From contig NZ_QPIG01000002.1 of assembly GCF_003337215.1 (NCBI RefSeq), positions 248,001-312,000 of the forward strand: a stretch of 64,000 nucleotides of DNA, in the 5' to 3' direction. The notes beneath the pieces were generated by a model. That model was not told the origin of the DNA and did no database searches. It worked only from the letters and a program-made list of their open reading frames with translations. Both the position numbers and the translations under genes were made by a program. The DNA comes from Oceanihabitans sediminis (GTDB taxonomy: Bacteria; Bacteroidota; Bacteroidia; Flavobacteriales; Flavobacteriaceae). Below are positions 49,219 through 51,191 of this stretch, piece by piece (the first letter of the stretch is position 1; each line of letters opens with the position of its first letter).

Positions 49219-49674
49219 TTACTGCTCTAATATTTGAGCTGCATGATCTTTTGTTTTAACCTTATCAATTACACGCTCAACAACACCGTTTTCGTCTATG
49301 ATAAAAGTTTTGCGGTGAATACCATCAAAGGTTCTTCCCATAAACTTCTTCTCACCCCAAACGCCAAAAACATTCAGCACCACTTTCTCTTCATCTGCTA
49401 ATAAAGGAAAAGGGAATTCATATTTATTTCTAAAATTAGATTGACGTTTTTCTGAATCTGCACTTACTCCAAGTAATTCATAACCTTTTTCTTGTAGCAA
49501 CTCATAGTTATCACGTAGGTTACAAGCTTCTGCCGTACATCCAGGTGTACTTGCTTTAGGATAAAAGAAAACAATTAATTTCTTTCCTTTATAATCACTT
49601 AAAGAAACTGCTTCTCCGTCTTGATTATTCACTGTAAAATCTGGAACCTTATCTCCTGCCTTTAATGTCTTCAT
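49219..49674 (-). CDS. bcp: Thioredoxin-dependent peroxiredoxin (Bcp/PrxQ)
   Basis: 151 residues from the ATG at 49,674 (MKTLKAGDKVPDFTV); a longer frame would overlap the nth start. Peroxidatic Cys in FYPKASTPGCTAEACN with the resolving Cys five residues later (CTAEAC), the PrxQ pattern, and the final FDGIHRKTFIIDENG. It reduces peroxides and organic hydroperoxides using thioredoxin. The gene is divergent to nth with only 31 bases between starts, so they share a promoter region. Confidence 0.93.
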   Translation of the reverse strand: MKTLKAGDKVPDFTVNNQDGEAVSLSDYKGKKLIVFFYPKASTPGCTAEACNLRDNYELLQEKGYELLGVSADSEKRQSNFRNKYEFPFPLLADEEKVVLNVFGVWGEKKFMGRTFDGIHRKTFIIDENGVVERVIDKVKTKDHAAQILEQ

Positions 49675-49705
49675 ATTTCTTATTTTTGCTAACAAAGATA
49701 CAATA

Positions 49706-50365
49706 ATGACCAAACAAGAAAAAGTAGATTTCGTTATAAAGACCTTAGATGAGTTATATCCAGAAATTCCAACTCCATTAGATCATAAAGATCCATACAC
49801 CTTATTAATTGCAGTTTTACTATCTGCGCAATGTACCGATGTGAGAGTAAACAAAACCACTCCCCACCTATTTGCTAAAGCAGATAATCCGTATGATATG
49901 GTAAAATTATCTGTAGAAGAAATCAAGGAAATTATAAAACCTTGCGGATTATCACCTATGAAAAGTAAAGGTATTTACGGTTTGTCTAAAATGTTAATTG
50001 AAGAACACAACGGAGTGGTCCCACAAACCTTTGAAGAGTTAGAGAAATTCCCAGCTGTAGGACACAAAACTGCTGGTGTGGTATTATCACAAGCTTTTGG
50101 TATTCCTGCTTTTCCTGTAGATACGCATATTCATAGACTTATGTACCGTTGGAATTTAAGCAGTGGTAAAAGTGTACAGCAAACTGAAAAAGATGCAAAA
50201 CGTATTTTTCCTAAAGAACATTGGAATGATTTACACCTACAAATGATTTGGTACGGAAGAGAATATTCTCCTGCAAGAGGCTGGGACTTAGAAAAAGACA
50301 TTATTACTAAAACTATTGGTAGAGCTTCCGTTTTAAAGGAATACTATGCAAAGAATAAAAAATAA
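49706..50365 (+). CDS. nth: Endonuclease III (no Fe-S cluster ligands)
   Basis: 219 residues. HhH-GPD glycosylase fold with helix-hairpin-helix AVGHKTAGVVL containing the catalytic Lys, and the catalytic Asp in FPVDTHIHRL. In E. coli Nth the C-terminal four Cys (C-x6-C-x2-C-x5-C) bind [4Fe-4S]. Here the corresponding tail (LQMIWYGREYSPARGWDLEK) has Ser and Asp and no Cys, so the cluster is lost. It removes oxidised pyrimidines and nicks abasic sites. Confidence 0.9.
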   Translation: MTKQEKVDFVIKTLDELYPEIPTPLDHKDPYTLLIAVLLSAQCTDVRVNKTTPHLFAKADNPYDMVKLSVEEIKEIIKPCGLSPMKSKGIYGLSKMLIEEHNGVVPQTFEELEKFPAVGHKTAGVVLSQAFGIPAFPVDTHIHRLMYRWNLSSGKSVQQTEKDAKRIFPKEHWNDLHLQMIWYGREYSPARGWDLEKDIITKTIGRASVLKEYYAKNKK

Positions 50366-50600: not shown

Positions 50601-51191
50601 TTAATTGGTTAATATTATATTATGCTTATCAATTATTTTACGCATATTTATTAATGCATAACGCATTCTACCTAGTGCAGTGTTTATACTTACACCTGTT
50701 TTTTCAGATATTTCTTTAAAACTCATATCGTTATACATACGCATTACCAATACTTCTTTCTGATCTTCTGGTAACTCTTGAATAACGCGTCTCACATCGC
50801 GTTCTACTTGTTCTTTTATTAAGCTCTTTTCAGCATCTAAAGTAGAATCACTTAAAACAGAAAAAATACTAAACTCGCCACTATTACTAAACTTAGGCAT
50901 TCTATTAGATTTTCTAAAGTGATCAATAACCAGATTATGAGCAATGCGCATCACCCAAGGTAAAAACTTTCCTTCTTCATTATAGGAACCTTTTTTTAGG
51001 GTTTTAATAACTTTTATAAAGGTATCCTGAAAAATATCTTCAGCAATATCCTTATCATATACCTTAGAGTATACAAAGCTATAAATACGTTGTTTGTGTC
51101 TTGTAATTAATATTCCTAGCGCGCTTTCGTCCCCTTTTATGTAGTTACTAACAAGAGTTGCGTCTGTTATAAGTTGATTTTTCATAGCCAT
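50601..51191 (-). CDS. ECF-type RNA polymerase sigma factor
   Basis: 196 residues. Sigma region 2 (LITRHKQRIYSFVYSKVYDKDIAEDIFQDTFIKV, WVMRIAHNLVIDHFRKSN) and region 4 (LPEDQKEVLVMRMYNDMSFKEISEKTGVSINTALGRMRYAL) are intact. No anti-sigma gene is adjacent. A second in-frame ATG two codons in (51,185) is equally possible. In Bacteroidota such sigma-70-like ECF factors serve stress or surface-function regulons; target unknown. A 48-codon gene follows. Confidence 0.9.
   Translation of the reverse strand: MAMKNQLITDATLVSNYIKGDESALGILITRHKQRIYSFVYSKVYDKDIAEDIFQDTFIKVIKTLKKGSYNEEGKFLPWVMRIAHNLVIDHFRKSNRMPKFSNSGEFSIFSVLSDSTLDAEKSLIKEQVERDVRRVIQELPEDQKEVLVMRMYNDMSFKEISEKTGVSINTALGRMRYALINMRKIIDKHNIILTN

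Follow-up and report, generated by a model that had tools for sequence, protein, structure and literature searches.

The nth gene of Oceanihabitans sediminis is an intact open reading frame within the window, which here means the whole 64,000-nucleotide stretch of DNA that was analysed. It encodes an endonuclease III orthologue of 219 amino acids that is devoid of the [4Fe-4S] cysteines. The gene lies between a divergent peroxiredoxin gene and a gene for a sigma factor, and the features of this region are as follows.

49219 to 49674, minus strand: AhpC/TSA-type (Bcp-like) peroxiredoxin, divergent from nth (PF00578, 141 bits)
49706 to 50365, plus strand: nth, endonuclease III orthologue without [4Fe-4S] cysteines, 219 amino acids
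50066 to 50068, plus strand: K121 codon, catalytic Lys (E. coli K120), within HhH motif FPAVGHKTAG
50120 to 50122, plus strand: D139 codon, catalytic Asp (E. coli D138), within PVDTH
50601 to 51191, minus strand: sigma-70 family (ECF-like) factor, downstream of nth

The likely start codons of the peroxiredoxin and nth are separated by 31 bp (window 49219-49706). The arrangement was compared with that in 80 close-relative loci, which are the best 80 of 584, have an identity of at least 80% and are therefore close relatives by construction. A divergent peroxiredoxin homologue is found upstream of nth in 77 of the 78 such loci (among the best 80 of 584) that have at least 700 bp of upstream sequence, at a distance of no more than 412 bp in 76 of them and of 1403 bp in one. 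The conservation of this neighbourhood is no more than a hint at oxidative stress. A homologue of the sigma factor occupies the downstream position in 76 of the 79 close-relative loci with enough flank.

The assignment of the protein to endonuclease III rests on family scores and alignment. The HhH-GPD domain (PF00730) is matched at 75.6 bits, and the closest PDB relatives are the endonuclease III entries 1p59 and 1orn (E ~1e-44), along with 2abk. The NCBIfam model for nth, TIGR01083, gives 211.1 bits (E 1.1e-62) against a curated cut-off of 211.7, which places the protein 0.6 bits short of a threshold that is itself straddled by its relatives (46 of 146 order genomes lie above it). The protein scores 32 bits with the MutY model TIGR01084, for which the cut-off is 286.5, and so lacks the MutY family score expected of a clusterless MutY (MutYX). 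Alignment to E. coli Nth places K121 within the helix-hairpin-helix and D139 within the VDTH motif, opposite K120 and D138, and both residues are present in all 322 Nth sequences aligned, a set composed of the 80 close-relative loci, the O. sediminis protein itself, 240 sequences from other Bacteroidota genomes and E. coli Nth. A preliminary description of this DNA had called the gene an endonuclease III that retains its catalytic Lys and Asp, and both statements are borne out.

In E. coli Nth the C-terminal loop wraps the [4Fe-4S] cluster, near the DNA. The same description held that all four cluster cysteines are absent and proposed an alignment to E. coli Nth as a check. With E. coli K-12 Nth as the reference for the cysteine positions, this alignment confirms the claim, since none of the columns of C187, C194, C197 and C203 holds a Cys in the window protein. 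Whereas the E. coli protein ends in ...GRYTCIARKPRCGSCIIEDLCEYK, the O. sediminis protein ends in ...GREYSPARGWDLEKDIITKTIGR, with all four cluster cysteines gone, and the canonical C-x6-C-x2-C-x5-C spacing is not found in it. The PF10576 cluster-loop model matches E. coli Nth at 24.2 bits and the organism's own MutY at 20.6 bits (cut-off 20.5); a match to the window Nth was sought at E≤1 and none was found, though both of these positive controls matched. The only cysteines of the protein are C43 and C80, the latter being the last. The residues found in place of the cluster loop are listed below, together with their counterparts in ligand-free relatives and in relatives with a Cys3His loop (C-x4-H-x4-C-x2-C).

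50264 to 50362, plus strand: tail in the place of the cluster loop, residues 187-219, YSPARGWDLEKDIITKTIGRASVLKEYYAKNKK, no Cys
50267 to 50269, plus strand: S188 codon, corresponding to E. coli C187 and to the first Cys in Cys3His relatives; Ser in 121 of 121 ligand-free relatives
50282 to 50284, plus strand: W193 codon, corresponding to the invariant His in Cys3His relatives; Trp in 100 of 121 ligand-free relatives, His in 34 of 34 Cys3His relatives
50297 to 50299, plus strand: D198 codon, corresponding to the second Cys in Cys3His relatives; Asp in 112 of 121
50306 to 50308, plus strand: T201 codon, corresponding to the third Cys in Cys3His relatives; Thr in 105 of 121

When the 80 close-relative loci are left out, the ligand-free counts become Ser 41/41, Trp 20/41, Asp 32/41 and Thr 25/41, and the Trp at the His place is thus mostly a feature of the close family.

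A sequencing, assembly or frame error near the end of the gene, which the preliminary description had itself raised, could give the false appearance of cysteine loss by hiding a Cys-rich tail. From position 50200 onwards, however, the other two forward frames contain no C-x6-C-x2-C stretch and are repeatedly interrupted by stops. Moreover, the loop GREYSPARGWDLEKDIITKTIGR is carried by all 6 other genomes of the genus, and the four cysteines are absent from 80 of 80 close-relative loci (the best 80 of 584; nearly all Flavobacteriaceae or its genera, with the family assigned by identity, two loci labelled as other groups and a few broadly labelled). This agreement refutes the error explanation, the probability of which is negligible. 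The primary Nth copies from 10 genomes of the family, that of O. sediminis included, consist of nine that are Cys-free and one with the first Cys only. Mean conservation across the window protein and 37 of the 80 close-relative loci is 94% for residues 187-206, compared with 91% for residues 1-186 and 62% for residues 207-219, and the Cys-free loop may be read as a maintained feature. What is added to the earlier description is that the Cys-free trait is common to and conserved across close relatives, and that more distant ones have a Cys3His version of the loop. Two nth genes that are 83% and 81% identical to the window gene are found on contigs of Limnohabitans and Rhizobium metagenome-assembled genomes, respectively (L015, L046), and these contigs are probably mis-binned Flavobacteriaceae.

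The wider set of 322 Nth sequences reveals several ligand states. The set is non-random, as the searches return the best-scoring loci, favouring Cys4 forms, together with the closest 80 of 584, and tails were fetched and read from part of the class (149) and order (146) genomes, so that the counts are not prevalences. Canonical Cys4 tails number 143 (141 with exact spacing and two off by one), and tails with none of the four ligands number 121, of which those outside the 80 close-relative loci span 15 family codes; a stray Cys lies close to the C-terminus in two of the 121. The Cys3His tail occurs in 34 sequences from 19 family codes, in 33 cases with CPxC, and two of its members lie above the TIGR01083 cut-off, at 221.5 and 225.5 bits. 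The first Cys alone is retained in three tails, and one tail is truncated. A rearranged C-x9-H-x2-C-x6-C-x-C loop is found in 16 of 16 sequences from four family codes (f23, f21, f50 and f42) of another class in the phylum and is best described as a separate remodelling of the cluster loop. These rearranged sequences (L273-L284, L299, L302, L303 and L305) fall among the canonical rows on the FastTree tree. A C-x6-C-x-C-x2-C or similar arrangement is seen in four of the 322 (L158, L160, L170 and L270, from genomes G498, G487, G460 and G483), all of family code f111, which holds canonical and Cys-free copies too.

When 32 of the 34 Cys3His sequences are aligned, with identities of 62-78% to the first row, C188, H193, C198 and C201 prove invariant; the two members left out (L196 and L209) have the motif before their stop codon. 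A count of ligands at fixed offsets was made over the lineage's 162 readable tails; all four are present in 34, none in 121 and the first Cys only in seven, four of which have further Cys at other spacings, and not a single tail has two or three (L258 stands outside the 162). Such an all-or-nothing pattern is what would be expected of a shared metal site, and shared ancestry contributes too. The Cys3His set is hence likely to be a metal site. Zinc is the favoured occupant because of the analogy to CPxC knuckles, for which there is precedent of zinc binding, and to NEIL2, but the site may be an iron-sulfur site with a His ligand.

The existence of a different ligand set in these relatives shows that the loop is able to carry one, and it is conceivable that the window Nth still holds a metal or cluster through other ligands, for instance C43 and C80 with S188, D198 or histidines, the more so as all 32 aligned Cys3His relatives have C80. 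Nevertheless, 41 of the 121 ligand-free relatives do not have any cysteine in the whole protein, and the four loop positions have changed together to non-ligand or weak-ligand residues, which makes retention of a metal by such a route very unlikely.

The relationship between these states was addressed with trees built from the protein core alone, the loop being left out; L254 and L270 were dropped from the 322 for gaps or X, and the remainder was thinned to 241 rows. An 87-row tree, with eight canonical rows and the 80 close-relative loci left out, sets the non-canonical lineage apart from the canonical sequences with support of 100/99. A FastTree tree of all 241 rows, 134 of them canonical, gives the same exclusive non-canonical grouping with a local support of only 0.62. 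The canonical rows that are set apart include ones of the same order and class as the non-canonical Nth. The Cys3His, one-Cys and Cys-free proteins would thus group as one Bacteroidota lineage distinct from canonical Nth.

Within this lineage, Cys3His and Cys-free rows are mixed together in the best free tree. A single Cys-free clade is not rejected by the AU test (p-AU 0.645), nor is a single Cys3His clade (p-AU 0.682), and in both cases the constrained tree is better than the free tree. Many independent losses, as suggested by the 15 Cys-free label changes on the free tree (12 when three states are scored), were considered and dropped since the constrained trees are better. The simplest reading would be one departure from the canonical motif for the whole lineage. 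The Cys3His form may represent an intermediate step, a sister state or something gained later; an order in which it preceded the Cys-free state is favoured, since the first Cys of this form is homologous to C187.

The rest of the O. sediminis genome (2.9 Mb, 97% complete) contains two HhH-GPD genes, the window Nth and a MutY of 346 residues, and the search of its HhH-GPD genes for a second Nth found none, leaving the window Nth as the sole one found. No match to the Fpg/Nei family (PF01149) was obtained in this genome by a search that was positive in 8 of 14 control genomes. Backup by Fpg/Nei or by a second Nth was considered, and neither was found. Fpg is the usual partner of MutY, removing 8-oxoguanine opposite C; with MutY present and no Fpg/Nei found, this partner is either missing or unrecognised in O. 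sediminis.

The organism's own MutY retains the C-x6-C-x2-C-x5-C motif, and the Fe-S assembly proteins SufB and SufD are present. Among 32 genomes with Cys-free or one-Cys Nth, MutY was found in 28 and the motif is kept in all 28. Among the 34 with Cys3His Nth, it was found in 32, of which 30 were read, and four cysteines are present in 30 of 30, with 28 loops canonical and two one residue shorter. Altogether the four cysteines are kept in 58 of 58 MutY proteins that were read in genomes whose Nth is non-canonical, O. sediminis among them; 30 loci were listed per set, four of the 32 and two of the 34 genomes gave no true match, the MutY proteins of G314 and G302 were left out, and the motif search covered all frames of each MutY locus. 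As SufB and SufD are present and MutY keeps its motif, the cysteine loss is, by this comparison, confined to Nth, and a missing cluster supply does not account for it. A genome-wide loss of Fe-S assembly as the cause is ruled out on the same grounds.

The role of the [4Fe-4S] cluster in DNA glycosylases is disputed, the alternatives being a structural one and one in redox sensing and DNA charge transport; cysteine mutants made in the laboratory are often unstable, as set out in the accessible part of PMC9268735. According to the same part of that source, Cys-to-Ser changes harm the stability of MutY, and MutY refolded without its cluster is inactive, which is attributed to lost DNA binding. 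Observations of this kind, taken with a TIGR01083 score just below the Nth cut-off, would suit a window Nth that is a decaying or non-enzymatic remnant, be it a DNA-binding protein or a glycosylase of other specificity. Decay has some parallel in the small-genome family f116, where the end is truncated in one of the four copies retrieved and one 300-kb genome has no match. Even there, nth is present in the listed 600-kb genomes. The retention of the catalytic Lys and Asp throughout the 322 sequences, a loop conserved like the core and the failure to find another Nth or an Fpg/Nei in the genome speak against a remnant, which is considered improbable. In the f116 copy concerned (L258, from the 600-kb endosymbiont-sized genome G468) the C-terminus is shifted and shortened, apparently by decay.

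The preferred reading, held with a probability of roughly 85%, is that the nth product is a working cluster-free endonuclease III with a packed loop. The window protein is not a canonical [4Fe-4S] endonuclease III but an orthologue without the cluster, which should function in the same way, and it would be an active bifunctional glycosylase/AP lyase. The path of the lineage is suggested to have led through a Cys3His site, probably of zinc, to loss of the ligands altogether. The fuller sequence of events, in which a [4Fe-4S] site gave way to a Cys3His zinc site and then, in Flavobacteriaceae and allies, to a metal-free plug of Ser, Trp, Asp and Thr while MutY kept its cluster, is put forward tentatively, at a little under even odds.

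The predicted structure is in keeping with a closed tail. AlphaFold2 was run on the window Nth with 38 sequences, yielding five models with mean pLDDT values from 89.6 for the best down to 63.6. The model superimposes on 1orn with a Z of 25.0 over 212 residues and on E. coli Nth (2abk) over 211 of 211 residues with a Z of 24.9 and an rmsd of 2.5. In the AlphaFold2 model the endonuclease III fold is thus followed through the tail, where pLDDT blocks are 85-96 and short helices span residues 199-204 and 207-217, although a known fold can be drawn whether the loop is stable or not. The model would have the C-terminal fold close without metal.

E. coli Nth flips out oxidised pyrimidines, which are attacked by the Lys with assistance from the Asp, and has both glycosylase and AP lyase activity. 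In the window Nth an oxidised pyrimidine would likewise be flipped out, attacked by K121 and acted on with the help of D139. In place of a cluster, packing of the protein alone would hold the C-terminal loop, with S188, W193, D198 and T201 occupying the ligand places of its relatives and the two short helices closing the end of the protein. A lineage evolving without the cluster would have needed to mend the instability that is seen in ligand mutants. In this connection the C199S variant of Deinococcus EndoIII2 has comparable activity but is unstable; it formed a [3Fe-4S] cluster and is thus not cluster-free (PMC9268735, accessible part).

Comparison with known systems helps to place the protein. 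The predicted fold is common to the Nth proteins of E. coli and Geobacillus stearothermophilus (2abk, 1orn and 1p59) over the full length, with Z of about 25, and the likeness extends to the HhH-GPD domain, the catalytic Lys and Asp and an Ala-Arg pair two residues past the first ligand position. A clusterless MutY is represented by the PDB entry 8uuc, titled 'bacterial clusterless MutYX', and by a report of Trasvina-Arenas in 2016, which calls the cluster dispensable in its title, as cited in PMC11078426; together these indicate that the HhH superfamily can dispense with the cluster. Like the window Nth, it is an HhH glycosylase of this superfamily without [4Fe-4S] cysteines. It is, however, an adenine glycosylase, and in the genomes studied here the situation is reversed, with MutY keeping its cysteines and Nth being without them.

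Yeast Ntg1 is an Nth homologue without the cluster motif. In PMC9624242, as far as its accessible text goes, Ntg2 is named among the iron proteins and Ntg1 appears in a reference title. Ntg1 is eukaryotic and shares its cell with the cluster-bearing paralogue Ntg2, whereas the window Nth is the sole one found in its genome. Among the H2TH glycosylases, Fpg/Nei have a Cys4 zinc site, NEIL2 has a Cys3His zinc site and NEIL1 has a zincless finger (PMC9266487, accessible part). Their structural metal site therefore shows the same three states of Cys4, Cys3His and none, but the fold is unrelated to that of Nth, and the Cys4 form binds zinc rather than Fe-S.

E. coli Tag is an HhH protein and H. pylori MagIII is cluster-free. 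The former is described as having a 'zinc snap' in the accessible part of PMC9266487. As with the window Nth, the end of Tag and of MagIII (1pu6/1pu7) is not built on an Fe-S cluster, but both are 3-methyladenine glycosylases, and the ligands and their position differ. No cluster-free or Cys3His endonuclease III of Bacteroidota is described in the literature searched, which comprised titles and the openings of abstracts, with subscription papers mostly uncovered. Cluster loss in the superfamily is already known for MutY and also for yeast Ntg1, and the Nth case adds a variant.

Because laboratory cysteine mutants are unstable, they provide a poor answer to the question of a structural versus a redox role. 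Oceanihabitans sediminis Nth seems to show that nature has already made an endonuclease III without the cluster, and a sole endonuclease III that is cluster-free by evolution beside a four-Cys MutY represents a natural experiment. The availability of Cys4, Cys3His and ligand-free orthologues would allow repair, lesion search and oxidant sensitivity to be compared, and the four-Cys MutY in the same genomes would permit a comparison bearing on the suggestion of the preliminary description that cluster loss may separate the repair activity from a redox or DNA charge-transport role. If the reading of a ligand swap followed by loss is true, the endonuclease III cluster is replaceable scaffolding, and a large group of bacteria can do without any redox signalling that links endonuclease III to MutY. 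There is also a warning to annotators here, as a cluster is generally assumed wherever a gene is called endonuclease III.

Strongly diverged four-Cys Nth-like genes occur as second copies beside the primary Nth in f1 (L265, L267, L268 and L269) and f53 (L271), and these extra copies are perhaps a separate glycosylase subfamily. A scan of viral contigs gave four loci, whose matching stretches have 22-45% identity and stop short of the loop.
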